Assembly (NCBI GenBank): GCA_000308255.3
Contig: HG326663.1
Location: 331,690 to 395,689 of the forward strand
Length of the DNA: 64,000 nucleotides
Reading direction: 5' to 3'
DNA from: Anaerococcus pacaensis 9403502
Lineage (GTDB): Bacteria > Bacillota > Clostridia > Tissierellales > Peptoniphilaceae
Shown here: piece after piece, positions 1,140-18,715 of the stretch
How positions within the stretch are numbered: the first letter of the stretch is position 1
Layout: each line of letters begins with the position of its first letter
Notes under the pieces: generated by a model
What the model was told of the DNA's origin: nothing
Database searches by the model: none
What the model saw: the letters and a program-made list of their open reading frames with translations, nothing else
Translations under genes and position numbers: made by a program

Positions 1140-2557
1140 ATGTGTAGGTCACGAGCTCCATGTTCTACTGCTGCTAGGTTTTCGATGGTTGATTTTCTAA
1201 CAGCTTCATTTGGAATTGAGTTTATTTCACGTTTGATTAGGACTTCGATATCCTCTTTGGTTTGTGGGCTGGCGTAGTCTTCGGAGTATTCTTTTAGGGT
1301 TACTAAGGCATTTGGCTGGCAAATATTACCTATGCCTACATTTTTCACCATTTCCATAAAGACCTCACCAGTGCGGCCCTTGCGGTAGCAAGCTGTGCAG
1401 AAAGATGGGATGTGATCTTTTTTAAGTAGCCAATCCACCACTTCATCAAGTGTTCTATTGTCAGAAAGCTCGAATTGGTCAGAGCCTACTGTTTCATTTT
1501 CTGTATAACCACCTACTGATGTACGAGATCCACCAGAGATTTGGCTGATGCCAAGGTCAAGTAGTTTACCTCTCATCTCTTCAGACTCACGAGTAGATAC
1601 GATCATACCAGTATATGGAGCTGCTATGCGGATACAGGCTACGAGTTTTTCAAACATGTCGTCAGACAGTGAATTATCAAAGTCCTCTGGGTCTATACCA
1701 TCGCCTGCTGGTTGGATACGTGGGACAGAGATGGTGTGTGGTCCTACATTGTATTTGGCCTCTAGGTGCTCAGCATGCATCAATTGGCCGACAAATTCAT
1801 ATTCGTAGGAATCTAGTCCATAGAGCACGCCAAGGCCCACGTCATCGATGCCCCCATCCATAGCACGGTCGTGGGCTGTGGTGTGGTAGTCATAATCAGA
1901 TTTTGGTCCGTAAACGTGGAGCTTTTCGTAATTTTCTCTGTTGTATGTTTCTTGGAATAGGATGTATGTACCTATTTCTGCATCGTGAAGTTTTCTATAA
2001 TTTTCTGTGGTAGTTGCAGCAATATTAACATTCACACGGCGGATTGATCCATTTTTGTGCTTAATATTATAAATAGTGTCAATAGATTCGAGTATGTATT
2101 CGATAGGATTGTGAACTGGGTCTTCACCTGTTTCAAGGGCTAGACGCTTGTGGCCCATATCTTGTAGAGCTATTACTTGTTCTTTGATTTCCTCTTGGGT
2201 GAGCTTCTTACGAGGGATTTCCCTGTTGTGTCCATGGTATGGACAATACGTACAGCCATTTACGCAATAGTTTGATAGGTAAAGTGGAGCAAAGAGCACG
2301 ATTCTATTGGCATAAAACTTAAGCTTAAGCTCCTTTGCTATCTTAAATATTTCCTCAGTAAGGTCGTCTTCCTCACAAGATAAGAGCACAAAGGCCTCTC
2401 TGTGTGACAAACCTTTGGCCTGTCTAGCTTTTTCAAGTGTTTCTATAATAAGTGACCTATTGTGAGCATTGCGTCTCCCATAGTCAATCGTTTCCATAAT
2501 CTCTTCATGGTTGATAAACTCAGCTGGATCTGAGCTTTTTGGATTGTATGTAGTCAT
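1136..2557 (-). CDS. hydG: [FeFe]-hydrogenase H-cluster radical SAM maturase HydG
   Basis: HydG is a radical SAM tyrosine lyase that makes the CO and CN ligands of the H-cluster from tyrosine. Seen: the radical SAM cluster motif Cys98-x3-Cys102-x2-Cys105 (CVNGCTYC) in the N-terminal half, and at the C-terminus the HydG-specific CX2CX22C motif (CTACYRKGRTG followed by GNIC) that binds the auxiliary cluster. The length of 473 aa is normal. The start has an AAGGAG site 5-6 bases upstream. First gene of a two-gene hydG-hydF unit. Confidence 0.96.
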   Translation of the reverse strand: MTTYNPKSSDPAEFINHEEIMETIDYGRRNAHNRSLIIETLEKARQAKGLSHREAFVLLSCEEDDLTEEIFKIAKELKLKFYANRIVLFAPLYLSNYCVNGCTYCPYHGHNREIPRKKLTQEEIKEQVIALQDMGHKRLALETGEDPVHNPIEYILESIDTIYNIKHKNGSIRRVNVNIAATTTENYRKLHDAEIGTYILFQETYNRENYEKLHVYGPKSDYDYHTTAHDRAMDGGIDDVGLGVLYGLDSYEYEFVGQLMHAEHLEAKYNVGPHTISVPRIQPAGDGIDPEDFDNSLSDDMFEKLVACIRIAAPYTGMIVSTRESEEMRGKLLDLGISQISGGSRTSVGGYTENETVGSDQFELSDNRTLDEVVDWLLKKDHIPSFCTACYRKGRTGEVFMEMVKNVGIGNICQPNALVTLKEYSEDYASPQTKEDIEVLIKREINSIPNEAVRKSTIENLAAVEHGARDLHI

Positions 2558-2580
2558 TGTAATCTCCTTTCTTTATATAT

Positions 2581-2586
2581 ATTATA
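2581..2586 (-). promoter_or_regulatory. Candidate -10 box for hydG-hydF
   Basis: On the minus strand TATAAT lies about 25 bases upstream of the hydG start. No convincing -35 hexamer is present at the right spacing, so this is a weak assignment. Confidence 0.35.
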
Positions 2587-2652
2587 ATACTTATCTGATG
2601 GAAATGGTAGGTTTTTTGTAAAGATTGGAATCATGGTGGAGTGGTTTGCAGT

Positions 2653-2680
2653 AAAAAAAGACTCCACTTTCATGGAGTCC
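2653..2680 (-). terminator. Rho-independent terminator of the FCT-like pilus operon
   Basis: Read on the minus strand, a GACTCCA/TGGAGTC stem is followed by seven Ts, directly after the stop of the minor pilin gene. It separates the pilus operon from hydG. Confidence 0.85.
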
Positions 2681-2686
2681 TTTCAC

Positions 2687-4036
2687 TTAGGCTTTGTTTT
2701 TTGCTTTTGTGGTAAGTTTGTATAGTCCTAATGCTATGCATAGGATAAGAGCCCAAATTGCCACACTTTCGATACCAGTTTGGACATTGCCTTTGCCGTT
2801 TTTGGCTTTGCCTTTTTTACCATCTTTCTGATCATCTTTAGTGGCTTGGTTTACATCGTCGTCATCTGTTGGTTGGTTTGGATCGGTTGGGTCTTCGTTC
2901 TCTTTGCCACCTGTGCTATCGCCATTGTTGTTTTGATCAGTCTTATCCTTATCGTCACCATCTCTGATTGGGTCGGATGTTCCGTCGTCATCGTCTGTTG
3001 GTTTTGTTGGAACTTTTGGATTGTCTGGGTCAAATGGGGTGTCTGGGAATAGTTTGTCCCACCACCATGGCTTGTTGTAGCCGTTATCTGGTTTTGGTTC
3101 AACTGGCTTATCCGGATTTTCTGGGTCGTATGGGGTGTCTGGATATAGGATGTCCCACCACCATGGTTTGTTTGGTTTATACCTATCGACAGGCTTGGTA
3201 GGATCTTTTGGATCTGATGGGTCTACGATTGGGTTTGCTGGGTCAAATGGTTTGTCTGGGATTATGACATCCCACCACCAAGGCTCGCCCTTGCCTGTGT
3301 CTGATCTAGGCGGTCTAGTTGGATCAACAGGTCTCGTAGGGTCTGTCGGATTGTTTGGATCAGTTGGCAGATTTGGATTATCTGGGTTTACTGGTCTGTC
3401 TGGGTTGTCTGGGCCTATTGGCCAAGGGATTGGTTGCCATGGCCACCATGGGAATGGTATTACAATATGATTGTCATCACCTGGGCCTGGTGTTGGTCCT
3501 GGTGGGTTTGGTGTTGGCGGTGTAGGTGGGGTTGGGTCTTTTGGTTCGGTGTTGGTGAACTTAATATCACTTACTTTGCCCGTGCCACTTTTCTCATCTT
3601 CATATTTAGACTCGTCATAAGCATAGACGGTGGTGCTAGTGCCACCGCCTTGGTTATTTTGAACTAATACTATCACTCTATAGACAGTTTTATCGTACTT
3701 AACATCTCCATTTGCTGTCTTAAAGTCATCATTAGTTTGTTTTACCAAGTAAACGTATTTGCCAGGTTTATTAAATCCTGTCAAATCAAATTCAATTTTC
3801 TTATTCCCTATGACTTCATATTTAACATTTGAAAAATCTTCATTGTAGGAAGTATTTGTAAACTCAATATTTGACTTATGCTTGGCATTATTTGGCGCCT
3901 TGCCATCCTGAGTCCACTCTATAGTAATCGGTAGCTTGTCGTGGCTAGGAGTATCGGTCGCTTCTGCGCCTACAAATGGAATGACTACAAATAAAGCCAT
4001 AAGTATTAACTTTTTAATTATTTTTCTTATATTCAT
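2687..4036 (-). CDS. FctB-like minor (basal) pilin with proline-rich tail
   Basis: A 449-aa secreted, sortase-anchored protein, probably the cell-wall-linking basal subunit of the pilus. Seen: signal peptide (about 1-26); one pilin isopeptide-linkage domain (about 30-165), with the terminal strand ending FTN; a long Pro/Asp/Asn-rich stalk (about 168-400) containing three to four imperfect repeats around KPWWWD...PDTPFDPENP; then a sorting signal VQTGIES at 418, a hydrophobic segment and a Lys-rich tail. S. pyogenes FctB is likewise last in its operon and ends in a proline-rich tail. The Gln in place of Pro in the sorting motif (NVQTG) is unusual. It starts 3 bp after the class B sortase. The role is inferred from gene order and architecture. 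Confidence 0.75.
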   Translation of the reverse strand: MNIRKIIKKLILMALFVVIPFVGAEATDTPSHDKLPITIEWTQDGKAPNNAKHKSNIEFTNTSYNEDFSNVKYEVIGNKKIEFDLTGFNKPGKYVYLVKQTNDDFKTANGDVKYDKTVYRVIVLVQNNQGGGTSTTVYAYDESKYEDEKSGTGKVSDIKFTNTEPKDPTPPTPPTPNPPGPTPGPGDDNHIVIPFPWWPWQPIPWPIGPDNPDRPVNPDNPNLPTDPNNPTDPTRPVDPTRPPRSDTGKGEPWWWDVIIPDKPFDPANPIVDPSDPKDPTKPVDRYKPNKPWWWDILYPDTPYDPENPDKPVEPKPDNGYNKPWWWDKLFPDTPFDPDNPKVPTKPTDDDDGTSDPIRDGDDKDKTDQNNNGDSTGGKENEDPTDPNQPTDDDDVNQATKDDQKDGKKGKAKNGKGNVQTGIESVAIWALILCIALGLYKLTTKAKNKA

Positions 4037-4038
4037 CT

Positions 4039-4791
4039 CTAGTCTCCATTTAGTGGTCTCATTACTCCTAATAAGACAGTTCTGCCATTTGTAGTTGCCT
4101 TCTCACAAGTTGATAAGGCTATAATCCTATCGTTTCTGGTATCTATATTTCTTTCATGTAAGATATTTTTTCTAGCATAATCTATTAGATATGAGCGCTG
4201 GTCCATACTTGCAATCGTCGATGGATTGAAAATCACGTGATCATAAGCATCAATCTTTGCCACCATAAAAAACTCTATGCGGTAGGTCTTATCTGGCAAG
4301 AATAATGTGCCATACTTGTGGGAATCAAAATATGCTTTCTTCTCGAAATTTACCACATCCCCAAACATTCCCCCGCCCTCCATGTGGTGGCCGTAGAGGA
4401 GATTGTATGTGTCAGTGAAGTCTTTCTTATTGCGGTAGTCTAAGAAAATCGACCCAGATAGGGCAAAATTTTTATAAACGTCTTTGTTTATATACTCCAT
4501 ATTATCCTCGCTATATAGGACTGGATAATCGATATGGGTATCATCGACAGTTAGCCACGCCACCACATCTTCATTTATTTTCATTAGCTCCCATAGAGTG
4601 GGGTTGGTCCCATCTTCTGTAATCTGTGGTTTATATGCCATTATCTCGCTATCTGCAAAGGCTCCGCGATAGAGCATATAAGAATTCCACAGCGAATAGC
4701 CGGCAAATAATATGACAAGAATTAGAAATACTGCTACTATCCTATCCAATATTTTTTCTCCCGTACGGGAAATTTTTGCTGCTATTTCCAT
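4039..4791 (-). CDS. Class B sortase, pilin polymerase of the FCT-like locus
   Basis: A 250-aa membrane-tethered transpeptidase. Seen: N-terminal membrane anchor (about 17-35); catalytic His135 in YGHHM; catalytic Cys229 in ALSTC; catalytic Arg237 in NGRTVL. The YGHxM...STC...GRxxLxG pattern is class B, the class that polymerises FctA/Spy0128-type pilins in S. pyogenes. An upstream in-frame ATG at 4806 exists, but AAAGGAG lies just before the ATG at 4791, so that start is chosen. The gene sits between the major pilin (after a 560-bp gap) and the minor pilin (3 bp). Confidence 0.88.
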   Translation of the reverse strand: MEIAAKISRTGEKILDRIVAVFLILVILFAGYSLWNSYMLYRGAFADSEIMAYKPQITEDGTNPTLWELMKINEDVVAWLTVDDTHIDYPVLYSEDNMEYINKDVYKNFALSGSIFLDYRNKKDFTDTYNLLYGHHMEGGGMFGDVVNFEKKAYFDSHKYGTLFLPDKTYRIEFFMVAKIDAYDHVIFNPSTIASMDQRSYLIDYARKNILHERNIDTRNDRIIALSTCEKATTNGRTVLLGVMRPLNGD

Positions 4792-4811
4792 GGGGACTCC
4801 TTTCATGACCT

Positions 4812-5345
4812 AACCCCATTGCACGAAGTGGTATGGATGGTAGGTCAGATGTCGCAATATGCCAGTCCGGCTCATCTAGGACTTTTTAAGTGAGTGCAGC
4901 TCACTTTGTCAGCAAGCCGACTTTTCAGTATCATATTCAACCGGAAAATCTTTCTTTTAACTCCTTCTATGCCACTCAAAGCCATGCCCCCCTCATTACC
5001 CCGAGCTCAGCGAGGGGTCTTTTGGGAATGCACTACGTATGAAATAAATTTACTCTAACTAGGTCTCTCAATAACGGGAAATCTCCGACTATCCTTTACT
5101 CGAGTCAGTGATTTTTAACTTTTTTTTGATGTGTTGTCAAAAAAGGTTCCTCACATGCGTTCGGAACGTGGGGATGAGCGTTAGTAGTTTGTATTGTTGT
5201 TAAGGAAGATTCCTCACATGCGTTCGGAAGTGGTAGTCCCTTCCCGGGACTAGGGGTCGTTTTTAATCCGACATGATTTTCATTTTTTAAAATTTAGACC
5301 CATTCGGCAACGGATTTTCTATTGAAAATCCTGCTCAGGGTTAAA
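4812..5345. repeat. Intergenic cluster of small palindromic (REP-like) repeats
   Basis: About 540 bp without a gene between the major pilin and the sortase of the same operon. It holds several hairpins: AAGTGAG/CTCACTT near 4890, and two copies of a TTCCTCACATGCGTTCGGAA unit near 5147 and 5210, whose relatives occur at 27.2-27.7 and 49.7 kb. A TCCCGGGA-centred palindrome lies near 5236. The hairpins may reduce readthrough from pilin to sortase or protect the pilin mRNA 3' end; that is inference. Confidence 0.7.
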
Positions 5346-5352
5346 GTTTGGT

Positions 5353-6552
5353 TTATGCAAGTTCTTCTTCTTTATTTCTCTTGAAGTAGAAGTAAGCAAA
5401 TCCACCTGCTAATGCGATGATTAGGATAAATGGTGCAAGGTTTTCGATAAGACCTGTTGGTACATCTTCAGTACTATCGTTTGTCCATACAACATTTCCA
5501 AGTACAAACGTATTAACTGTTACACCATCTGCATCCAGGTCTTCCTTATTGGTTAATGTAAATGTTTCTGTAGTATCATCATCAGATTTATCTGTTACAG
5601 CTGTTACTTTATATTTAGCTCTTGTGGCATCATTTGCGGCAATTCTAGGGTCTTTTTCAGTTATAGTTATCGTATCTTCTGATCCCAGTCCTGTAATTTC
5701 TATTACTGCATTGTTGCCAACTCCAGTAATTGTAAATGGTGTACCACTTGTGATAGGTTGATCTTTTGTAGTGCCAAATGAATATCTAGCATTGCTATGA
5801 TTTTTAGTATTGACAGTTATAGTAAAATCGAATTTGTCATTTAAGTTAGCTTGGTTACCAGTAATTTTTTTAGTGATTGTAAAGTTTTCAGATACTAATC
5901 TGTTAGTAAATACTAAAGATCGTTTTGTGTTTCTACTTTCTTCATCAATTCCAGTTACATTTTCATCGTTAGAGTCAGACTTATCATAATTTCTAGTAAC
6001 TACATAGTTTTGAATTACTTTTCTATCTACTCCATTTGCATCAACTTCATTGGCTACAAATATATCAATATTATAGGCATTTTCATCATAGTCCATGCCT
6101 GATATTTGATCAGCATTAGCTGGAATAACTTCTTTTATTACATATCTATAAACACCCACTTGAGCACTTTGTAGTGCAGCATCATTGATAATGAAGTCTA
6201 ATTTACCCTCGTTTTGTCCAGCTGTAATTGTAAGACCATTACTTGGTAGGGATATAAGAGGATTAGCACTTGTTCTTGGTTGGTAACCTTTGTAAGTACT
6301 TGGAGCAGTAGTTTCTGCTAGTTCAAAGTTAAAAGTTCCTCCATTAAAGTAGCCGCCTTCAACTATCTTTGTTAGGGTTGGCGCTCCGGCATTATCAAAA
6401 CTAAAGTCTGTATCACTACTATCAGTAGTTGTTGGGTAGGTAGGTCTATCTTGTGGTGAGGTTGCACTTGCACTACCAGCAAATCCCGCAAATGCCAATG
6501 CACCTGCTAAAGCTAATCCTGTTGCTTTTTTGAATAAGTTTTTTAAATTCAT
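5353..6552 (-). CDS. FctA/Spy0128-like major pilin
   Basis: A 399-aa backbone pilin. Seen: signal peptide ending near ASA (about residue 30); two isopeptide-linkage domains, with Lys in TKIVEGG and TITKKITG, a YRYVIKEV strand carrying the catalytic Glu, and closing strands LVFTNR and FTLTNK; sorting signal VPTG at 364 followed by a hydrophobic helix and KRNKEEE. The tail VPTGLIENLAPF closely resembles the EVPTG-type signal of S. pyogenes Spy0128, which is polymerised by a class B sortase. The start has AGGAG 6 bp upstream. It lies between the SipA-like gene and the class B sortase. Confidence 0.87.
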   Translation of the reverse strand: MNLKNLFKKATGLALAGALAFAGFAGSASATSPQDRPTYPTTTDSSDTDFSFDNAGAPTLTKIVEGGYFNGGTFNFELAETTAPSTYKGYQPRTSANPLISLPSNGLTITAGQNEGKLDFIINDAALQSAQVGVYRYVIKEVIPANADQISGMDYDENAYNIDIFVANEVDANGVDRKVIQNYVVTRNYDKSDSNDENVTGIDEESRNTKRSLVFTNRLVSENFTITKKITGNQANLNDKFDFTITVNTKNHSNARYSFGTTKDQPITSGTPFTITGVGNNAVIEITGLGSEDTITITEKDPRIAANDATRAKYKVTAVTDKSDDDTTETFTLTNKEDLDADGVTVNTFVLGNVVWTNDSTEDVPTGLIENLAPFILIIALAGGFAYFYFKRNKEEELA

Positions 6553-6582
6553 ATTTTTCTCCTGTTATAAATTTTTTTATTT

Positions 6583-7185
6583 TTAAAATCCAGATCTTCT
6601 AAACAAGGAAAATACCTTGCCTTTTATTTCATCTTTTTCTACCGGGCCAAAGTATCTACTGTCCTTGGCGCCTCTTCTCATATCTCCTAGGGCGAATACT
6701 TCGTCATCTGCAAGTTTTACTGGATATTTGATATCTACTGCTGTTTCCTCGTATTCTCCTGTTGGGTAGAATATATTTGTCTCTGCCTGATATGAGCCGT
6801 TTACTATCATCTGTCCTTCTGGGGATATCTCTACTGTATCTCCCCCGCCTGCTACAATGCGCAAGGCATAGTCTGCATCATTCTTACCTACCACTACTAC
6901 ATCGCCCACATAGAAGTCTCTATCGAGCCTGTAGTATAGAACTAAGTCACTTGTAACCATTTTTGGAAACATATCGTCGTTATATACGATATAGAATCCA
7001 AATATATAGCTAAACATCAACCATAATACCAATGCTATTATAATAATTTTTCTTATAAAACTAATAATGGCATTTGTATCGGCGATTTTCTTGCGCCTAG
7101 CTTTGATAATCTGGTTGATATTTGTGAAATCAACTTTGTATATATCACGCTCTGGCGTTATTGTGATTTTAACCTTCTCACTCAT
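6583..7185 (-). CDS. SipA-like pilus chaperone (inactive signal peptidase I homologue)
   Basis: A 200-aa type I signal peptidase fold with an N-terminal membrane helix (about 45-66). The SMxP box that carries the catalytic Ser reads Asp71-Met-Phe-Pro, and the Lys-Arg pair of the general-base box reads Leu108-Arg109 before GGGDTVE. Both catalytic residues are therefore missing. The C-terminal box GDMRRGAKDSRYFGPV is well kept. S. pyogenes SipA is known to lack the same dyad and is needed for pilus assembly, so a chaperone role is likely. The start ATG overlaps the end of the 72-aa gene by 8 bp. Confidence 0.82.
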   Translation of the reverse strand: MSEKVKITITPERDIYKVDFTNINQIIKARRKKIADTNAIISFIRKIIIIALVLWLMFSYIFGFYIVYNDDMFPKMVTSDLVLYYRLDRDFYVGDVVVVGKNDADYALRIVAGGGDTVEISPEGQMIVNGSYQAETNIFYPTGEYEETAVDIKYPVKLADDEVFALGDMRRGAKDSRYFGPVEKDEIKGKVFSLFRRSGF

Positions 7186-7396
7186 CGGATAAGCCTCTGA
7201 GCTTTTGTAACTGGCTGTCCCTATCTTCTAAGAGCGACTCATAAATGAGTGCCTGCCTGTCAAAAGCCTCTTGGTAGAGGGCTGAGAGCTTTTGTATCTT
7301 TGCGAATACATCTGCCTCATCCACTCCACCTATTGCTTTTTTCTTAAACTTTACATTTTTAAGGTACTCTTCGATTTCATTTAATTCATCAGTCAA
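7178..7396 (-). CDS. Small coiled-coil protein of the pilus operon, unknown function
   Basis: A 72-aa protein with no signal peptide or membrane segment, rich in Glu, Leu, Lys and Gln, with probable coiled coil over most of its length. It overlaps both neighbours by 8 bp, so it is translationally coupled between the adhesin and the SipA-like gene. I recognise no family. The S. pyogenes FCT locus as I know it has no counterpart at this position. It could be a cytoplasmic partner of the SipA-like protein; this is only positional inference. Confidence 0.7.
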   Translation of the reverse strand: MTDELNEIEEYLKNVKFKKKAIGGVDEADVFAKIQKLSALYQEAFDRQALIYESLLEDRDSQLQKLRGLSDE

Positions 7397-10300
7397 TAGT
7401 ACCTCCTAGTTTCTTTTTCTTATATATTACAAAGCCCGCTAAGGCTGTAATAGCGATAATAATTAATGTTACCATTGGAATTATATTTTCTATTATTCCT
7501 GTAGGTGGCGGTAGAGGTTGACTTTCAAATATCACTTTTATATCCTCTTCTATACTTTCAAGACTTAATGTATTACTATTATAAGTATCACCCTTGTACG
7601 TATACTTCACATATCGATTAGACTTTGCTTCTATCTTTATATTTGTACTTCCATAAGGTATTTCGACATCAATAGAATTACCATTATCTACTTCGTATTC
7701 TTTAGAATAGTTAGTATCTTCCAATGTGTAAGATACAATGAATTTCTTATCATTATCTGTGATATCATCACCTGTGAGATTATTTATTATAGTAACTTTA
7801 AATTTATTTCTCTCCCATATACCATAGAGAATGTTTGGCATGTTTTCGTAGGTTATCATAACCTCTTGGCCAGGCTCGAAAATCTCCCCTTTAGTTGGAT
7901 CTTCTGTTGTAGACCAGCCTATGAAATGAAAACCTGTAGTGTTTGTAGCACTTGGCTGTGGTAGCGTAATAGTATCGTTATTTCTCAAATCTTCAGTTGG
8001 TCTATTATCATTTATACCATTTGGTAAATCTGATGGTTTATTTCTAGTTTCATATACTATATCGTCTAATGGGCTACCACCTGGGGCGATTTCTTTAAGA
8101 GTGAGTGTTGTAACCCTGTATTCGTTAAAGACTGGCTTAAACATAATATTACCTATTACATTTACTATATCTCCTGGCTGGTAGATTTTATTAAGCATAG
8201 TTTGATCTGTTACACTAGTAAATTCTGAATCTTTATCTATAACCCATCCCTCAAAAACCTTGTCTTTTGGAACTGACAATTTCTTGCCACTTGGATTATC
8301 TTTATCAGGTGGGAATCTATAGTCATTATTTATATATGGTGGTATAACTATAGCCTCAGCATTGTTTACGTAGTCGTTTGGATCTGTGTATACATAATCA
8401 GTCCCGTCTTCTTGAGGAGCCTTGTATTTGACTCTGTAAATTTGTGATAGAGGTCTAAATTCATCTCCCACTGGTGCTAACCAAACAGGATATAGGAATA
8501 AGTCGCTATAGACAGGATCACTGAAGTTGTATTCTGTCAGTGTTCCGTTGATAAATGCATACCATCTAAGCTCTGATCCTGGGGTTTGTTGGGCAACGGG
8601 TGGTTTGTCAGCACTAAGCTTAGTACTATCTACCGTATCCCCCCTTTTTACTTTAAGTTCAATTACACCTGCTTCGGGATTATTTCTTTGTCTATAAGCT
8701 CTAACAGTATATACTGGCTCTTCCCATTTGGCGTATAGTTTTAAGTTATTATCAGGCATGGTCATTGATTTTAGGTCTAATGGATTGCCTGCACCATTGG
8801 GATTATCAAACCATCCAGCAAATATTTTGCCATCACTATTTTTTGTTTGTCCTATTATATAATTTTCTGGAGCATACTTTGCTAAGGATGATTGATATAA
8901 AACACCTTTTCTTACTATGTCTGGCCCATTACCATTAGTAGAGAAAGTTAAATCATGACTATTTCTAGAGTAATAAACCCACACTTCATTTATATCTGAA
9001 GTTTTACCATTATCATGGTTGGTGCTGGGCCTTGCAAAGTTATTTCCTGGTCTCTCTACATATCTATAAGTATAACCAGTTATATCTTCTCCACCAGTGT
9101 AACCTTGGAAGGATGAGGGTAATTGAGATGTTTTTTGGTCTAATCTTATTAACTCGTTCGTATCAATATCTATTATTCTAACGTTCCATGCATTATTGCC
9201 CTCTCTCCATGCCATTAAAGTATAGTCTTTCTTTGGCATTCTAGGAGGGGTAGTAACGGTTTGACCAGCTAGTCCATTCTCCTTAAAAGTATATCCTGAA
9301 CCTAATTTAGCTAGAGCTTGGTCAAAATACGGTTTTGTATCTGCTCCCCATTTTACATCTGCTACTACCACATTATATTGAGTTAAAAATGGTTGCTCAT
9401 ATATCCTAAGTTTGAAAGTATCTCTATCATAGTATAGATTTATTTCGGTAGTGCCATCACCTCTAATAATTTTGGATGTATCAGCACCTACGTAGTGGAT
9501 TTTTTCATTTTTCATAGTGGAACTTGGTAGCTTATAAGAGCTTGAATCCGCATTGGTATATGTTCCTGCATTAGCAGTTCTTGTTTCAGAACTATATAGG
9601 GAGTAACCATTATCATCAGCATTTTCCATAAAATGGTTGATAGTATATTTAACTACCTGAGGAGTCCACACAGCATAAAGGGTCATGTCCTTGGTGATAG
9701 GAGTGTTGGCATTGAATTTGCTTCCATTTGGTTTAGTCGACCAGTACTTAAAGTCATAGCCTGGCCTTACTGGTTTTGTCAGATCATTTAAGCTCAATCT
9801 GTCTCCACTATATACCACTTGCTTATTTACATGGGTTCCACCCTGGGAATCAAAGGTAACTGTCAGTGCTTTTTTAAATACTGCATATAGGTCAAGTCTC
9901 ACGTAATTGTCTGCGCCCTGTACACGTTGTATATACTCTTTCGTGATTGGGGTGTTGAAGTCAAAAGCCTCAGTGCTATCTGGCTTAAGAGCCCAGTGAG
10001 AGAATACAGTTCCACTTTCTCCTGGGATTACTGGTACATCTTCTGTCGTAACCATTCCACCTAGAGGTATTTCCTTAGTAGATAAGACTTCATCCACATA
10101 GCTTATAGATCCATTGCTATTTTCAACTTCTTTTCTATCTATGAAGTTGATATATGCTACATCAGGATACTTACCTTTGAGATAGATTGTTTTAGGAGAT
10201 GAATCTGTAACAGTCACCGGCTTATCAAAGTCAAATTCCTCTCCAAAAGTATCAGTTTCGATATCATAATAATGCCAACCTTCAAACTTACCCTTATAAC

Positions 10301-11972
10301 TAAAGATAGGTAGTTCAGGTTGTATAAGCTTTTCACCATTTCTAACAGTTTGGGTATCCCAAACTTCTCTTTCGTTATTTTCATTTCTATTTAAAAATAC
10401 AAATGTTATAGCGCGAGCATCGGGATCTGTTACTGCATATATGGAGAAGCTATCTGCCTTGAAGGTTACAGTGTCGTTAGTTTTATCTTGAATTTCTATC
10501 TTCTCTTCAGGAGCAAATTCATTTTCTTTGTGGTATATCTCAACCTTGTCTGCTTCACTAATTTTTTGATTTGTAATCTCTACTCTAATATCGTTAGCAG
10601 CTGATACTTCATACTCTTTATTATCTTTATCAAATATTTTTATATCATAAGCTGCAAGTACTTTTTGATTTTCAATTTCGATATCTACCGGGTAGGCTTT
10701 TATTTTTGTATAGCCTGGCAGCTTTCCTGATAATTTTATCCTAGTTGGGTCATATGACCTCATAGTGTAGCTACTATCTGTATAGATGTCTGCTAATACT
10801 TGTTGATAGCTTAGCTTGTTTTCACCTTCTTCAACTGATTGGTCTTCTAAATCTTCTAATTCATTGGTTTTGTCAGTTAGATTTATATCTTTAGCGGAAT
10901 CCACTTCTTCTGGACTAAGGTCGGTGTCTTCTGTGCTTTCATTTTCTGATTCTTTTAAATCATTTGCTTCATCTGTTATATTTTCACCATGAGCTTCCTC
11001 TACTTCTGATTTTTCTTTGCTGTCTATATTTTCCGCACCATCTTTCTCATCAGTAGGGTTTAATAGATCTGCTCTCCAATCTAGCTCATCTGTTTCTGTG
11101 GTATCCACTTCTGATGGGTCGGTGTCAGTTTCATCCTTTTCTGGAGTTTCGATTAGATTTGTGATGATGTCAGTTGGGCTTATTATTAGATTATTTTCTG
11201 GAGTGGCTGAGGTATTTTCTTCATCTATTGAGTCAGATAGAGTTTCATCTTCACTCTCTCTTGGGAGGTCTGTGGCTATGATAAATTCGCTTAGGCCAGC
11301 TTCAAATTCTACTGAGTCGGTGTATCTATCGAAGTCTCTTCGTTCGAAATACCTTGTTGTATTTGCTGGCCTTTCGTATAGGTAGACATTTTCTTTATCA
11401 ACTAGGTCTCTGTGGCTGATTGATATTTGGTAATAGCCTGGCATTTCACTTTGCCATAGCTTATCCTCTTTGTCAAAGATTTCAAAAGTGAAGGCAAACA
11501 TTGTCTCTTTTCCTTCTATTTCATCATTGGTTTTGTATGCTTTGACTGTGGCATGAGCTGGCATGAGGCCAGTGATTGCTATAATGGTGTTTTCTAGAGC
11601 TATATCTTCGTAGCTAGTATCTTCATATAAGCTAGCATATATAGTTTGTTCTACTATCTCTTCATTGGCTTCAGCTAGTAGCGGATTGACTATTGGTGTT
11701 TGGTCCATTTTATCCAGAGGGCTGCTTATATCCTCTGGAGTGGTTGTCTCTGGCTCATTAATATCAGTATCTTCAACTGGGAGAGTTTCGTTACTAGTAT
11801 CTATCTCAGGATCATCAGCTGTATCTGATGTCATAATTGATTCATATTCAGTAACCTCCTCCCCATTAGTATCTAGCGCATATACCATGCTAGTCTTAAG
11901 TGGGATGACGGTTGAACTGAATGTTAGCATAAATGCTAATAAAAATGCTATAAATTTGTGTATTCGTTTCAT
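7389..11972 (-). CDS. Large sortase-anchored tip adhesin with InlB-type repeats
   Basis: A 1527-aa surface protein, first gene of the FCT-like pilus operon, in the position of the tip adhesin Cpa. Seen: signal peptide (1-32); an acidic Thr/Glu/Asp-rich region with two copies of a domain beginning YEDTSYEDIALENTI and YTDSSYTMRSYDPTRI; then from about 520 several Listeria-Bacteroides (InlB B-type) repeats with the pattern FxGWxxxxxxG...FDFxxPVT...LYAVW; a C-terminal Pro segment and sorting signal PPTGIIEN near 1489, a hydrophobic helix and KKKK. The sorting tail resembles that of the major pilin (PTGxIEN), suggesting the same class B sortase handles both. It shows no obvious Cpa thioester motif. 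The ligand is unknown. Confidence 0.8.
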   Translation of the reverse strand: MKRIHKFIAFLLAFMLTFSSTVIPLKTSMVYALDTNGEEVTEYESIMTSDTADDPEIDTSNETLPVEDTDINEPETTTPEDISSPLDKMDQTPIVNPLLAEANEEIVEQTIYASLYEDTSYEDIALENTIIAITGLMPAHATVKAYKTNDEIEGKETMFAFTFEIFDKEDKLWQSEMPGYYQISISHRDLVDKENVYLYERPANTTRYFERRDFDRYTDSVEFEAGLSEFIIATDLPRESEDETLSDSIDEENTSATPENNLIISPTDIITNLIETPEKDETDTDPSEVDTTETDELDWRADLLNPTDEKDGAENIDSKEKSEVEEAHGENITDEANDLKESENESTEDTDLSPEEVDSAKDINLTDKTNELEDLEDQSVEEGENKLSYQQVLADIYTDSSYTMRSYDPTRIKLSGKLPGYTKIKAYPVDIEIENQKVLAAYDIKIFDKDNKEYEVSAANDIRVEITNQKISEADKVEIYHKENEFAPEEKIEIQDKTNDTVTFKADSFSIYAVTDPDARAITFVFLNRNENNEREVWDTQTVRNGEKLIQPELPIFSYKGKFEGWHYYDIETDTFGEEFDFDKPVTVTDSSPKTIYLKGKYPDVAYINFIDRKEVENSNGSISYVDEVLSTKEIPLGGMVTTEDVPVIPGESGTVFSHWALKPDSTEAFDFNTPITKEYIQRVQGADNYVRLDLYAVFKKALTVTFDSQGGTHVNKQVVYSGDRLSLNDLTKPVRPGYDFKYWSTKPNGSKFNANTPITKDMTLYAVWTPQVVKYTINHFMENADDNGYSLYSSETRTANAGTYTNADSSSYKLPSSTMKNEKIHYVGADTSKIIRGDGTTEINLYYDRDTFKLRIYEQPFLTQYNVVVADVKWGADTKPYFDQALAKLGSGYTFKENGLAGQTVTTPPRMPKKDYTLMAWREGNNAWNVRIIDIDTNELIRLDQKTSQLPSSFQGYTGGEDITGYTYRYVERPGNNFARPSTNHDNGKTSDINEVWVYYSRNSHDLTFSTNGNGPDIVRKGVLYQSSLAKYAPENYIIGQTKNSDGKIFAGWFDNPNGAGNPLDLKSMTMPDNNLKLYAKWEEPVYTVRAYRQRNNPEAGVIELKVKRGDTVDSTKLSADKPPVAQQTPGSELRWYAFINGTLTEYNFSDPVYSDLFLYPVWLAPVGDEFRPLSQIYRVKYKAPQEDGTDYVYTDPNDYVNNAEAIVIPPYINNDYRFPPDKDNPSGKKLSVPKDKVFEGWVIDKDSEFTSVTDQTMLNKIYQPGDIVNVIGNIMFKPVFNEYRVTTLTLKEIAPGGSPLDDIVYETRNKPSDLPNGINDNRPTEDLRNNDTITLPQPSATNTTGFHFIGWSTTEDPTKGEIFEPGQEVMITYENMPNILYGIWERNKFKVTIINNLTGDDITDNDKKFIVSYTLEDTNYSKEYEVDNGNSIDVEIPYGSTNIKIEAKSNRYVKYTYKGDTYNSNTLSLESIEEDIKVIFESQPLPPPTGIIENIIPMVTLIIIAITALAGFVIYKKKKLGGTID

Positions 11973-12102
11973 ATCGTCACCTTTTCTTTTATATATTAAA
12001 AGCCTAAATAGGCTCAGTATTGCTTATACTCAATATACCGAACTTTTCACGAATTTCCATATTTTTTCACAGCTTATTGCGATATTATCAATATATATAA
12101 AA

Positions 12103-12130
12103 TATAAAAACAATGCCCCTGAAAGCATTG
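12103..12130 (-). terminator. Terminator after the class C sortase operon
   Basis: On the minus strand a CAATGC/GCATTG stem with an 8-nt loop is followed by TTTTTATATTTT. A second weaker hairpin (CTCCAGC/GCTGGGG) overlaps the sortase stop at 12278-12301. Confidence 0.75.
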
Positions 12131-12286
12131 TATTCGAGCCATCCCTAAAGAAAGATTTTTAGATATATTGTGAAGAAAATGTGGGGATTATTAATCGTAT
12201 TCTAATTTAAGAAATACTGATAAGTATAGTCAATCCTCTATATTTTATATTTAACTAAGTTAAAATCAATCAATTAAAGCCCCAGC

Positions 12287-13222
12287 CTAGAGAGCTGGAG
12301 CATTGTTTGTTTTGTCATATTTTATTGTGTTTGTAAGCCTTTTGATAAATCTAATGAGAGTCATTAAAAATAGCAGGCTGCCTATTATGGATAGGACAAG
12401 TGTTGCTATTCTTGTTACTTTTACCATATTATCAGCTGGCTGGCTTTCGTTCGTTTCTTCATCTGCTTGGCTCATTGGGTAATCTTTGCCTGGCAAAGCG
12501 AATTCTTCTGCTATGGCTGATTCTGATGTGTCGCGGTAGCAGTTTACCAATAGTCTATTTGGCCTAGGTGGTAAGAATGGGCTACAAGTCATGAGTGTGA
12601 CTATGTCAGCGTCCCCTCTAGGAGCTAGCTTGTCCCACTCGTATGGGTCGATGACTTCTTTGTCATTTACTATATAGCGTAGGGTTTCTTCTGCGCGCTC
12701 GATGTAGATATAGTCACCAGCATTTAGCTGGTCGAGGTATAGGAACATGGTGTCTCCCCACCAGCCCCTGTGGCCAGCTATTACTGATCTAGTGCCTGCT
12801 CCACCGATTGGGATGGATGAGCCGTCTACTTGGGCAACTCCTAGCGAGATGTGCTCGAGTGTTGCATCCAAATATAAAGGCAGGTGCTTGTCTAGTTTTG
12901 GAATTACCAAATAAGCAAATGGTGTGTTTGTTTTGGTAAATTTCTCATATCTAGTCTGATAGTCTTCAGCAGTGAATGGGTCTACTACTGTGATGTCTGA
13001 GTTTCTGACTATTTCGTTGTATTCCTCGGCATTGGCACGTTCTTCGGCTATTTCTACTTCAGACCTTGCTTGTTGAGTTTGTTCGAAGTTTCTTCTGCTG
13101 GCCCTGGCCGAGTAGTCGTTGTAGGTGCGGCGGAGTAGTGGAATTGTGACAAATAAGAGTCCCAGCATGATGAGGATGTATCCAATTGTACTACTTTTTG
13201 AGAGTCTTAATCGTTTCTTCAA
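12287..13222 (-). CDS. Class C (pilin) sortase, third of three
   Basis: A 311-aa class C sortase. Seen: N-terminal membrane helix (about 13-31); lid motif Asp81-Pro-Phe83; catalytic His151 in AGHRG; Cys213 in TLMTC; Arg223 in NRLLV; a C-terminal membrane helix (about 270-295). The start overlaps the previous sortase by 32 bp. It diverges from the other two around the active site (HRGWWGD, CSPFLPPRPN), so its substrate may differ, for example the ancillary pilin. Confidence 0.92.
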   Translation of the reverse strand: MKKRLRLSKSSTIGYILIMLGLLFVTIPLLRRTYNDYSARASRRNFEQTQQARSEVEIAEERANAEEYNEIVRNSDITVVDPFTAEDYQTRYEKFTKTNTPFAYLVIPKLDKHLPLYLDATLEHISLGVAQVDGSSIPIGGAGTRSVIAGHRGWWGDTMFLYLDQLNAGDYIYIERAEETLRYIVNDKEVIDPYEWDKLAPRGDADIVTLMTCSPFLPPRPNRLLVNCYRDTSESAIAEEFALPGKDYPMSQADEETNESQPADNMVKVTRIATLVLSIIGSLLFLMTLIRFIKRLTNTIKYDKTNNAPAL

Positions 13223-14072
13223 TTGTGCCTACCTCCGTTCTTAGTCTCTTTCTTCTGGCAGTTTCCCTTATAACTACTACTAGGAGTAGCACTATGATTG
13301 GGAGCATGATTAAAAATAGTTGCATGAAGTCTGGCGCTAGCCTCTTGGTATTGGCTACCCCATCATCAATTGCCGCTTGGTATGGAATACGGTGGCCACG
13401 GACTAGGAGCCTGTGGGAGTTGATCATGTATGGAGTACATGTCAGTAGTGTGGCATAGTCTTTGCCATCTTCTACTAGGACTGGTTCGAAGTCTGATGGG
13501 TCTACTACTAGGATTTGGTCTACTTGATAGGCCAAGGTGTCGCCTAAGTTGTGGATGTAGAAGACATCGCCTTCTACAAGCTGGTCTAGGTTTCGAAAGA
13601 GCTTGGCATTTGGTAGGCCCCTGTGGCCGGTGATTACGGTGTGGGTTGATTCACCACCTACCGGCAGCGATGTACCCTCCAAGTGTCCGGTACCCTTTTC
13701 TAGGACTTCATCAGATGTACCCGCATATATGGGCAAATCTTGTCCGATGCGTGGGATCTCGATGTGACCCATCATTTCGTGGACCTCTAGCATCCTCGCG
13801 TATTCGGCACGGCCTGCCTGTTCTTCTTCTGTGAAGGGATCGGCTAATCTTGATGGGTCGAGGGTATTGTTGTAGGCGCGGGCTAGATCTAGACGCCTTT
13901 GCACTTCTTCTTTGTCGATATTTTCTGTTTGCTTGCGGAATTCTACTACTTCATTGCCAGATTCTATTTCATAATATTTCTGGCTGATGAGCGGGTAGGC
14001 AAAGATTAGCATACCCACCAAGAAGATAAAGATGAATGGCAGATTTCTTTTAAGAACTCCTCGCCTATTCAT
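13191..14072 (-). CDS. Class C (pilin) sortase, second of three
   Basis: A 293-aa class C sortase. Seen: N-terminal membrane helix (about 11-29); DPF lid (78-80); His150 in TGHRG; Cys212 in TLLTC; Arg221 in HRLLVRGHR; C-terminal membrane helix (about 248-268). It is closely similar to the first sortase of the trio (PRIxQDLPIYAGTxE, GTGHLEGTSLPVGG). It overlaps the upstream sortase by 8 bp and the downstream one by 32 bp, so all three are one translational unit. Confidence 0.93.
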   Translation of the reverse strand: MNRRGVLKRNLPFIFIFLVGMLIFAYPLISQKYYEIESGNEVVEFRKQTENIDKEEVQRRLDLARAYNNTLDPSRLADPFTEEEQAGRAEYARMLEVHEMMGHIEIPRIGQDLPIYAGTSDEVLEKGTGHLEGTSLPVGGESTHTVITGHRGLPNAKLFRNLDQLVEGDVFYIHNLGDTLAYQVDQILVVDPSDFEPVLVEDGKDYATLLTCTPYMINSHRLLVRGHRIPYQAAIDDGVANTKRLAPDFMQLFLIMLPIIVLLLVVVIRETARRKRLRTEVGTIEETIKTLKK

Positions 14073-15228
14073 TTATATCTCCATTTTTATTTTGAGGATT
14101 GATCGGCTCACCTGTCATAGGGTCAAAGTTATACTGAGGCGGTGGACTTGATCCGTTGTTTGGATTGCCATTTCTCATTTGTTCAAACATATCAGCTCCG
14201 CCTTGGTATGGGCTAAAGCCTGCCCCTCGAGTCAGTAAATTCCTCAAGTCTTCTTGTTCTTTGCGGACTTCTTCAAGGCGCTTGTAGTAGTCCTTGTTTT
14301 GACGGCGCAATCTCCAAAGCCTGATGATTAGCACTATTATGAGGAATAGGGCCACAAAGAATAATATTCTAAATATCCAGTTTGCTCTATTTGTCCTAAT
14401 CAATTCTTCATCTACCGCTGGTACGTATGGTACGCGGTGCCCCCTTACTATAAGTCTGTGTGTGTTGATCATGATTGGTGTACATGTCAAAAGTGTCACA
14501 TAATCATGGCCTGGTGCTACCATCAAATCGGAAAAGTCGCTTGGGTCGATGACCTTTATTTGGTCTACTTGATAAGCCATTACCCCCTCGATATTGTGGA
14601 CATAGAACTTATCCCCGATTTCGAGTTGGTTAAGATGGGTAAAGAGCGTTGCCTCAGGCAGACCTGAGTGGGCGGTGAGTACTGCATGTGTGTTGTTGCC
14701 ACCAACAGGAAGAGAAGTCCCCTCCAAGTGGCCAACCCCTTTTTGGAGTATGTCTTCACCCGTACCTGCATATATCGGCAAGTCTTGATTGATACGTGGG
14801 ATATCCACGTGGCCAATCATTTCGCTTACCTCTAGCATACGAGCGTATTCCTTACGACCTGCCTCCTGCTCCTCACGAGTATAAGGGTCATTCTCAATGT
14901 CTCCAGAGAGCGAATCATTGTAGGCATGGGCAAGTTCGATACGTCTTTTGATTTCATCAGTTGTAAGATCTGCTGTACCAGACTTGAATGTGTCTACCTG
15001 GCTGGTGGAATCTATACGGTAATATAGTCTATTAATCACCGGATATAGCATCACAAGTATCCCAATAAGGAATATTAACCTCCAAGCCCACTTAGAAGCT
15101 TTCGATTGAGGTTTCTTTTTCTTCTTTGGCTTGGCATTAGGATTGCTATTTGTAGATGCAGTTACTTGACTAGTAGCCCCCTGTTGTGTATTTGATTTTG
15201 CTTTTCGTTTCTTCTTTTTAAAAGCCAT
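14065..15228 (-). CDS. Class C (pilin) sortase, first of three, with long cytosolic tails
   Basis: A 387-aa class C sortase, longer than usual because of a Lys-rich, Ser/Thr/Asn-rich N-terminal tail (1-47) and a Pro/Asn/Gln-rich tail after the C-terminal membrane helix (about 290-310). Core motifs: DPY lid (114-116), His187 in TAHSG, Cys249 in TLLTC, Arg258 in HRLIV. First gene of the sortase trio. Upstream lie an apparently promoter-bearing AT-rich stretch and the GC-rich element at 15394-15788, which separates it from the ancillary pilin gene. Confidence 0.93.
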   Translation of the reverse strand: MAFKKKKRKAKSNTQQGATSQVTASTNSNPNAKPKKKKKPQSKASKWAWRLIFLIGILVMLYPVINRLYYRIDSTSQVDTFKSGTADLTTDEIKRRIELAHAYNDSLSGDIENDPYTREEQEAGRKEYARMLEVSEMIGHVDIPRINQDLPIYAGTGEDILQKGVGHLEGTSLPVGGNNTHAVLTAHSGLPEATLFTHLNQLEIGDKFYVHNIEGVMAYQVDQIKVIDPSDFSDLMVAPGHDYVTLLTCTPIMINTHRLIVRGHRVPYVPAVDEELIRTNRANWIFRILFFVALFLIIVLIIRLWRLRRQNKDYYKRLEEVRKEQEDLRNLLTRGAGFSPYQGGADMFEQMRNGNPNNGSSPPPQYNFDPMTGEPINPQNKNGDINE

Positions 15229-15393
15229 TAAAACTTCTTTCGTTTAAGGGATTAACTTCCCTTTAAGGAACCCTAATGTTCATTATATTTACTGTTATAC
15301 TAATCCTATACAGTTCTTTAGTCCTTACATATACATTAATTAAAGGTAATATTTATCTTGTATGTAATACTGATATATAATTAATACTTAGCT

Positions 15394-15788
15394 TCCGGGG
15401 GATAGGGCACAGGGGTTGCAGAGACCCCTCTCGCCCTTTCCCCCGGTCCCCCTATACCCACTCCACCCCCGCTGCCACTGCGTGGGGCATTATTTAGAAG
15501 GATTCACTCCGCGAATCCTGCCTTTTCAGGGAGGCTCGGGTCACCGAGCCAGCCCCATAGGGTAGACTCGCTATGCGAGTCTTTGGATTGTTAGAATTAT
15601 TATATGCTCAAAACAAAAAAAGCTCACGCAGTGAGCTTACCGCTTGGTGATCAAACGGGAATCGCGAAGCGATCCTTCCCAAACTGCCCCCGGCAGGGTC
15701 GTTTGTAGGGGGTTGCGGAAAAAGGGGGTTTAAGGGGGGAAAACCGGTGGGGAGAATCGAAACTCCCCTGGGTTTTCCCCCTTGGACG
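15394..15788 (+). repeat. GC-rich hairpin-studded element, copy A
   Basis: A non-coding stretch far richer in G+C than its surroundings. It contains, in order, a C-rich block of about 90 bp, hairpins GGATTC/GAATCC (15500-15518), GCTCGG/CCGAGC, AGACTCGC/GCGAGTCT (15563-15581), AGCTCAC/GTGAGCT (15622-15638), ATCGC/GCGAT, then G-rich blocks ending near CTTGGACG. The reverse complement of 49008-49592 contains the same blocks in the same order. I see no ORF. It could be a structured RNA, a palindromic repeat cluster or a remnant mobile element. The flanks 15229-15393 and 15789-15857 are AT-rich and hold nothing else I can name. Confidence 0.8.
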
Positions 15789-15857
15789 AAGAATTATCTT
15801 TATAGCTAAGTAATCACCAGCTATAATATTCTATAAATAGAAATATTTTGATTACTT

Positions 15858-18137: not shown

Positions 18138-18301
18138 AATCTCTCCTCTAAGAATTTCTAATAAATATGTATATTCCCCGTTTTATTTATCTAATTTTAA
18201 ATAGATTTAGTCGCTTATATTATATCGTAATTATAACTAATATACAATCAATTTAGTAGGGTATTTTAGAGATGTTAGGAGAAAATTACTATATATAAAA
18301 A

Positions 18302-18324
18302 GAAAAAACAAGGCATCGCCTTGT
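18302..18324 (-). terminator. Terminator of the toxin-antitoxin operon
   Basis: Minus-strand CAAGGC/GCCTTG hairpin followed by a T tract, directly after the stop of the toxin-like gene. Confidence 0.85.
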
Positions 18325-18334
18325 TGGTAAATAT

Positions 18335-18715
18335 CTATAAAACATCTGCATAATAATCTGCTACTTTCGATGATATTTCACTATAAAGAAGAGGATATTC
18401 ATCTCTCATATCATCACAAATTTTATCAATTAAATCAGTTTCATTTATTGTTTGAACTTTATTAGCCCTGATATAAGAGACCTCCCTCGACAAATTTAAC
18501 TTTGGATATTTATTTCTATCCACCTTCACATCATAAATCGAATTTATCCTACTACTATCAGTAATACTCGATACTGGAAGGGCAGATAAATCAATTGGAG
18601 GTCTCCTCTGCTCTTCTTTATTGATCAAAAATGGTCTTTTCTTCGCCCTAACTTTATTTGACTTGATATCATAGTTTCGAAAAGCGACTGTAAATATACA
18701 ACCGACCTTACTCAT
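18335..18715 (-). CDS. Putative MazF/PemK-like toxin paired with a Panacea antitoxin
   Basis: A 126-aa protein lacking signal or membrane segments. The N-terminal part has KVRAKKRPFLI, like the K-x-RPVLVI strand of MazF/PemK endoribonucleases, followed by LPVSSITDSSR and later SYIRANKVQTINETDLIDKI, which resembles the MazF strand ending and final helix. The match is by motif only and is moderate. It begins 8 bp inside the 3' end of the Panacea-domain gene, as expected for a toxin coupled to its antitoxin. If a toxin, it would cleave RNA; other toxin folds also pair with Panacea antitoxins. Confidence 0.6.
   Translation of the reverse strand: MSKVGCIFTVAFRNYDIKSNKVRAKKRPFLINKEEQRRPPIDLSALPVSSITDSSRINSIYDVKVDRNKYPKLNLSREVSYIRANKVQTINETDLIDKICDDMRDEYPLLYSEISSKVADYYADVL

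Follow-up and report, generated by a model that had tools for sequence, protein, structure and literature searches.

The stretch analysed here, referred to as the window, comprises 64,000 nucleotides of contig HG326663.1 (assembly GCA_000308255.3) of Anaerococcus pacaensis 9403502, and its segment from position 2,687 to 11,972 holds the full gene set of a pilus operon of the class B sortase type, belonging to a lineage centred on Clostridia. The initial annotation had placed five genes in this segment, for an adhesin, a SipA-like protein, an FctA-like pilin, a class B sortase, and an FctB-like pilin, and all five were found where it had put them, on the minus strand. This inventory was incomplete, as a sixth conserved gene between the adhesin gene and sipA had been overlooked. 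We call this gene x72, and its association with SipA, together with the resemblance of its product to DivIVA and GpsB, is the main subject of this report. The gene set is given in Table 1.

Table 1. Features of the class B pilus operon, in window coordinates.
Feature	Position	Strand
Tip-adhesin-like protein, 1527 residues, InlB/Listeria-Bacteroides repeats, C-terminal PPPTG sorting signal	7389..11972	-
x72, DivIVA/GpsB-like predicted cytosolic protein, 72 residues, TTG start	7178..7396	-
SipA-like signal-peptidase homologue, 200 residues, Ser replaced by Asp71 and Lys by Leu108, tail motif IIKARR	6583..7185	-
FctA-type major pilin, 399 residues, predicted isopeptide sets K62-E141-N217 and K228-E299-N358, tail DVPTG	5353..6552	-
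Long spacer, fctA to sortase gene, two perfect copies of TTCCGAACGCATGTGAGGAA	4807..5352	-
Class B pilus sortase, 255 residues	4039..4806	-
FctB-type basal pilin, 449 residues, N-terminal pilin domain (below cut-off), proline-rich tail, NVQTG end	2687..4036	-

The best PDB match of the SipA-like protein was 4n31, a SipA (2.8e-19), and both residues of the catalytic dyad are replaced, as the initial annotation had noted. SipA has been reported to be inactive and needed for pilus assembly (PMC4049620; PMC7900414), and according to a 2021 review its interactions remain unclear (PMC7900414). The SipA of S. pyogenes has been studied in Lactococcus lactis as host (PMC4049620). In an alignment of 92 SipA rows, representing 89 distinct loci or entries and including 3 rows that are incomplete at the Ser column, the general-base Lys is present in none of the 92 and the Ser is kept in 11. 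Loss of the dyad as a streptococcal peculiarity is therefore rejected and, judged from these sequences, an inactive SipA is the rule in these loci. A second sample, from two orders, contained 16 rows with the Lys, which are like ordinary signal peptidases; an FctA-type gene lies beside just one of these.

The x72 frame overlaps the adhesin gene and sipA by 8 bases each, and its start codon lies behind AGGAGG, a good ribosome-binding site. Residues F17, G23, G24, and Y41 are invariant over 44 x72 sequences. A scan of named genomes for sortase relatives confirmed at least 556, the best 80 of which were analysed, and hidden Markov models (HMMs) found SipA in 71 of these 80, an FctA-type pilin in 78, an FctB-type pilin in 75, and x72 in 45. 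All 8 Anaerococcus loci of the window's lineage that have sipA (the window, L037-L042, and L044) carry x72. An x72 gene hidden in the x72-negative loci was ruled out by a check of 31 + 7 loci in the three same-strand frames of about 1.6 kb upstream of sipA, the best E value being 0.12. Of 398 genomes searched across the phylum, 8 gave x72 matches; those of the window and L213 lie next to SipA, and the others are long DivIVA-like frames or weak.

The gene x72 is closely tied to sipA: in 59 of 63 x72 genes, a count that left out L055, L056, L057, L212, L223, and L247 (copies or broken), sipA lies directly downstream of x72 or is fused to it. The spacing is within 60 bases in 57 cases, the fusion included, and 66 and 108 bases in two, and the remaining four genes are without a paired SipA. 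At loci L285 and L125, x72 stays next to sipA despite a rearranged gene order, and in L284/L223 the two are fused in one frame of 235 residues inside a full operon.

The cytosolic tail of SipA at x72-positive loci carries a motif made up of a hydrophobic residue, Ile, any two residues, and two basic residues (IIKARR in the window), the end of which lies 15 residues before the end of the tail at the 10th as well as the 90th percentile. In the first sample, a loose pattern for this motif was found in 48 of 48 x72-positive loci versus 3 of 36 x72-negative loci, and a strict pattern in 43 of 48 versus 1 of 36; shuffled x72-positive tails gave means of 6.7 and 2.3 of 48, respectively. Tails at x72-positive loci do have the higher net charge (median of 7 versus 4.5). 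The explanation of the motif as mere basic charge or tail length was nevertheless rejected, since neither the shuffles nor length cuts at 20, 25, and 30 residues abolish it. Leave-cluster-out motif models, which were not chosen by eye, gave an area under the curve of 0.89 and a cluster-level p of 9e-6 (15 x72-positive versus 18 x72-negative clusters), and these models are noisy, often settling on neighbouring stretches. The counts, the length and position measurements, and the models dropped 4n31, L046, L109, and L117 (incomplete), L115 (x72-positive, start unresolved), and L055-L057 (x72-positive copies of L039, L040, and L042).

In the second sample, the strict pattern was present in 4 of 9 x72-positive loci versus 0 of 24 x72-negative loci and the loose pattern in 5 of 9 versus 1 of 24 (p = 0.003 each). 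These counts took no previously seen rows, Lys rows, or rows without an FctA neighbour, and L263 (x72-positive) and L233, L242, and L243 (x72-negative), the tails of which are empty because of their start calls or frame breaks, were kept as misses. The misses IVREKR and TIRRIR resemble variants of the motif, in hindsight only. When the tail HMM from the first sample was applied to the second, 6 of 9 x72-positive tails scored above 13 bits and 0 of 25 x72-negative tails above 4.1 (p = 0.0008); tails too short to score were omitted from this comparison, and L227 (x72-positive, no FctA match) was added. On a tree of the sortase (SrtB) and SipA combined, x72 changes 10 times and gives 6 independent pairs, of which on average 5.6 run in the same direction and 0 in the opposite one (median p of 0.031, range 0.031-0.125).

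The AlphaFold model of x72 (mean predicted local distance difference test score, pLDDT, of 92) has a helix at residues 2-14, a loop, and a helix at residues 27-70. Local comparison of x72 with a profile of 21 clostridial DivIVA N-domains by hhalign gave a probability of 82.9 and an E value of 9.2e-6 over 35 columns; the score of 30.2 was equalled in 0 of 200 column shuffles, which reached at most 17.7, and four unrelated alignments were also well below it. The x72 HMM found 3 of 30 DivIVA loci, the best being L205 (1.3e-6), which matches PF05103 at 125.7 bits, and the reverse search with a DivIVA HMM picked up 10 of the 45 x72 sequences, none scoring above 18 bits. GpsB/Wag31 chains were 9 of the 50 Foldseek matches listed for the x72 model, all without significance. 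As an adaptor in the cytosol, GpsB recognises basic motifs of the SRxxR(R/K) type that lie close to the membrane in the cytosolic tails of cell-wall enzymes (PMC6335420). Because a search of 13 Anaerococcus genomes gave no PF05103 match above the cut-off, x72 may be the sole DivIVA/GpsB-like protein in Anaerococcus, where a diverged one could be missed; the single PF05103 match in the window's own genome is a frame of 781 residues elsewhere. In Globicatella, DivIVA-family proteins and x72 are both present. Loci L215-L218, of one other family, encode proteins of about 420-550 residues with an x72- or DivIVA-like start, in stretches without a pilus-gene match. Among the matches listed from the open-licence literature, judged by titles and the starts of abstracts, we recognised no description of x72 as a DivIVA- or GpsB-like protein together with pili or a sortase.

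The co-occurrence, adjacency, and motif association of x72, the natural fusion, the profile similarity, and the predicted fold suggest that x72 acts in the cytosol as a GpsB-like adaptor, docking on SipA and organising the site of pilus assembly, a reading in which we infer binding, dimerisation, and localisation and to which we give a probability of roughly 0.6. If the S. pyogenes system is taken as a guide, the sortase would join FctA subunits into a shaft by way of their (E/D)VPTG tails, the PPTG adhesin would form its tip and the FctB-like protein its base, and the inactive SipA would act as a non-proteolytic cofactor. In such an assembly x72 would most likely dimerise at the membrane through its helix-loop-long-helix domain and would grip the basic motif, placed at a fixed membrane distance in the SipA tail, in a way comparable to GpsB and the arginine motifs of penicillin-binding proteins. 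It would thereby bring SipA, the sortase, and the pilins together in one place, perhaps where the cell divides or where the membrane is curved.

Several observations weigh against this reading. Many loci that look intact lack x72, as does the pneumococcal-type locus L177, so the gene is not needed for class B pili generally. The tail patterns, which are regular expressions, were derived from the first sample itself; in the second sample they occur in only 4-5 of 9 x72-positive loci; and just 3 independent pairs could be used on a tree of SipA alone (p = 0.25). Two Lys-bearing proteins lie near an x72 HMM match (18.0 bits in one case, 41.1 bits beside a broken frame in the other). The likeness to DivIVA gave a probability of 12.7 in the global mode of hhalign, Foldseek found no PDB match for the x72 model at E <= 0.001, VIA gave GpsB a Z of 5.5, tied with unrelated helical proteins, and x72 HMM searches of the PDB returned no DivIVA. 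Pfam and NCBIfam scans of x72 likewise found no DivIVA family, PF05103 giving none for 7 members at E <= 10. A published DivIVA-like pattern reads GY[DN]xx[QE]V[DN] (PMC9858780), and x72, which reads GGV[DS]ExDVW, departs from it; we therefore call x72 DivIVA/GpsB-like rather than DivIVA or GpsB.

The same adjacency, tail motif, and fusion would also be expected if x72 bound the tail as a cytosolic chaperone or stabiliser specific to SipA, with no role in placing the machinery. The part of the fusion that matches x72 ends near residue 52, so the long coil would not be strictly needed, which fits a chaperone. However, DivIVA and GpsB are organisers associated with the membrane, and the profile of x72 suggests the same for it, and we consider a mere chaperone unlikely. 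It appears decidedly unlikely that this is an ordinary class B pilus operon with x72 as an unrelated accessory, either a regulator or a leader for translational coupling, kept beside sipA by operon inertia. An accessory of this kind could well overlap both neighbours and be missing at many loci, as x72 is, but x72 is a conserved protein with invariant residues that follows sipA through order changes, is fused to it in L284, and tracks the SipA tail motif. It is quite improbable that the association between x72 and the SipA tail is a by-product of shared ancestry, with clades having both or neither: closely related loci do dominate, and the few pairs on the SipA-only tree would agree with it, but the better resolved SrtB+SipA tree has no pair in the opposite direction, and the x72-positive and x72-negative clusters separate in the motif models.

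The sortase scores 190.9 bits with the NCBIfam class B model TIGR03064 (cut-off 153.75), and its best PDB match is 3psq, the S. pyogenes Spy0129 (1.1e-49); another of its closest solved relatives, 4y4q, shares 89% identity with the first sortase at L177, a locus with two. The gene order at L177 looks like that of pneumococcal PI-2. Class B pilus sortases have been described earlier (PMC3019223), and no counterpart of the sortase was found among the viral contigs searched. The best PDB matches of the FctA-like protein are T-antigen pilins (8.3e-6). Its AlphaFold model has a mean pLDDT of only 66.7, and the top Foldseek match of this model is 3b2m, an S. pyogenes major pilin (E value of 1.3e-14, probability of 1.00), the leading 25 rows being all S. 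pyogenes major pilins or PitB. In each of the two domains a Lys, a Glu, and an Asn are conserved among relatives, from which two isopeptide bonds are predicted; the pairs in Spy0128 are K36-N168 and K179-N303 (PMC7900414). These residues and the match to 3b2m indicate isopeptide-type domains in the pilin, the lack of which would have counted against the reading in the initial annotation. The initial annotation had also likened the VPTG tail to Spy0128; the tail reads DVPTG by eye, and TIGR03065 (QVPTGV) scores 16.4 bits, under its cut-off of 21.35. The proline-rich tail of the FctB-like protein is plain, with strep_pil_rpt (TIGR03786) at 25.1 bits, under the cut-off of 31.85, and a Pfam scan without a match. 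The InlB-type repeats of the adhesin are above the cut-offs of Pfam and NCBIfam, and the scans with these two collections found no thioester domain in it, although a diverged domain could escape them.

A spacer of 546 base pairs separates fctA from the sortase gene, and the repeat that it contains in two perfect copies occurs genome-wide in 7 copies at <=2 mismatches, on one contig only and in three groups. No Rfam family was found at gathering thresholds over window positions 2000-18500; promoter-like sites were at chance level (49 versus 47.4 expected), and terminator-like sites exceeded the shuffle mean (23 versus 12.9). Directly upstream of the operon, on the minus strand at window positions 12287-18137, there is a class C pilus locus with a SpaA-type pilin and three consecutive class C sortases. 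On contig C8 of the same genome (L003), a further sortase lies beside a protein whose tail carries LPKTG.

Among 130 genomes of the window's family, six sortases from the same genus were recovered at 74-76%, along with one 70% remnant. The six sister loci L037-L042 have the same gene order as the window and similar adhesins, although L037 has a short fctA frame. In 5 of the 6, the class B operon adjoins a class C pilus locus with a SpaA-type pilin and three class C sortases, and in L040 one class C sortase lies next to it. One further sister (L050, G034, 6276-7201) keeps the sortase end and a short FctB beside class C sortases, the part from adhesin to fctA looking deleted, and another Anaerococcus locus (L043, G027, 11345-13869) has a short fctA end, the sortase gene, and fctB only, preceded by a resolvase-like frame. 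Loci L047, L048, and L051 of the same genus belong to a different class B lineage without x72, whose sortase has a C-terminal membrane helix; of these, L048 groups with the Lactobacillales locus L176 and with L052 at 100/99, a candidate transfer.

The hosts of the best 80 of at least 556 relatives are mostly Lachnospiraceae, Oscillospiraceae, and uncultured Clostridia, together with Coriobacteriia, an Allobaculum bin, an Actinomyces bin, and Globicatella sanguinis, and they include the gut genera Blautia, Anaerobutyricum, and Gemmiger. Among the matches listed, the nearest relatives outside Anaerococcus are from Lachnospiraceae and Oscillospiraceae (51-52%). A class B pilus outside the streptococci has already been reported in C. 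perfringens (PMC8088525), and among the listed open-licence titles and abstract starts we recognised no earlier description of the present distribution across Anaerococcus, Clostridia, and Firmicutes. The interpretation in the initial annotation of a class B pilus system with the S. pyogenes core gene order and an inactive SipA holds, the system being of the S. pyogenes FCT-2/3/4 and pneumococcal PI-2 type, but its label "streptococcal" misleads, since such cassettes occur across Clostridia and in other groups as well.

In a tree of 35 sortases, in which S. pyogenes is represented by a single 178-residue fragment, the pilus class B sortases split from general SrtB at 97/98, and the pilus branch holds the sortases of Anaerococcus, S. 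pyogenes, and S. pneumoniae, so the sortase of the window lies inside the pilus clade; a place outside it, which the initial annotation had named as counting against its reading, did not result. Within it, the Anaerococcus lineage belongs to a mainly clostridial clade of 23 rows (96/100) that also contains the S. pyogenes fragment, and the pneumococcal type stands outside this clade with Lactobacillales loci, Coriobacteriia, and a second lineage of the window's own family. In the concatenated SrtB+SipA tree of 84 loci, the window groups with Anaerococcus at 97/98 and with L044 at 99/97, and in a larger quick sortase tree S. pyogenes is at the base of the pilus branch. A single clade of Anaerococcus and the pneumococcal type was rejected by the approximately unbiased (AU) test (p = 4.7e-5), a clade of Anaerococcus and S. 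pyogenes was allowed (p = 0.47), and a single streptococcal clade was not rejected at 0.05 (p = 0.078). Because S. pyogenes lies inside the mainly clostridial clade, transfer into the streptococci appears at least as likely as transfer out of them, and a streptococcal origin of the operon is not favoured. A recent acquisition of the cluster by Anaerococcus from streptococci is highly improbable: the shared core order, the S. pyogenes proteins among the best PDB matches (in a database poor in other class B pilus proteins), and the allowed clade with S. pyogenes are in its favour, but the synteny is common to the six sister genomes, the nearest outside relatives are from Lachnospiraceae and Oscillospiraceae, the pneumococcal clade is rejected, and x72 is present here but not at L177.

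The candidate partner, the matching tail motif, and the natural fusion make the role of SipA directly testable, and if the adaptor reading is true, x72 would be a dedicated organiser of the division type for a surface fibre. The findings also recast the S. pyogenes class B pilus as a branch within a mostly clostridial family found in gut genera. More tentatively, and with somewhat less than even confidence, we propose that class B pili outside the streptococci ancestrally had their own small DivIVA/GpsB-like positioning adaptor of the cell-division type that gripped the SipA tail, with SipA as its membrane receptor, and thereby set the place on the cell where pili are made, and that streptococci lost this adaptor or use another factor.

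In comparison with known systems, the operon shares with S. pyogenes FCT-3/FCT-2 (Cpa, SipA, FctA, SrtC, FctB) the core order, the class B sortase, the inactive SipA, a two-domain FctA with a tail that reads as VPTG-type, and a proline-rich probable basal pilin. It differs in its InlB-type adhesin without a thioester-domain match, in the additional x72, in the SipA tail motif, and in its surroundings, being flanked by hydG and the class C pilus locus, whereas the S. pyogenes locus has its own FCT flanking genes. S. pneumoniae PI-2 (PitA, SipA, PitB, SrtG1, SrtG2) has in common with it the class B sortase, SipA, and an FctA-type pilin; L177, which looks to be of this kind, has two sortases, no FctB match, and no x72, and its sortase belongs to a separate clade. 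The C. perfringens VR-10B pilus (CnaA, FimA, FimB, a signal peptidase, and a class B sortase) is likewise a non-streptococcal class B pilus, here likened by its description, in the available part of which no x72-like gene is mentioned; its fibres have been immunogold-labelled (PMC8088525). With the N-domain of GpsB and DivIVA, x72 shares the arrangement of a short helix, a loop, and a long helix, the profile similarity, and the presumed grip on basic motifs in the tails of membrane proteins, whereas it reads GGVDExDVW for RGYDxxEVD, is very short, and is tied to a pilus operon rather than to division genes.

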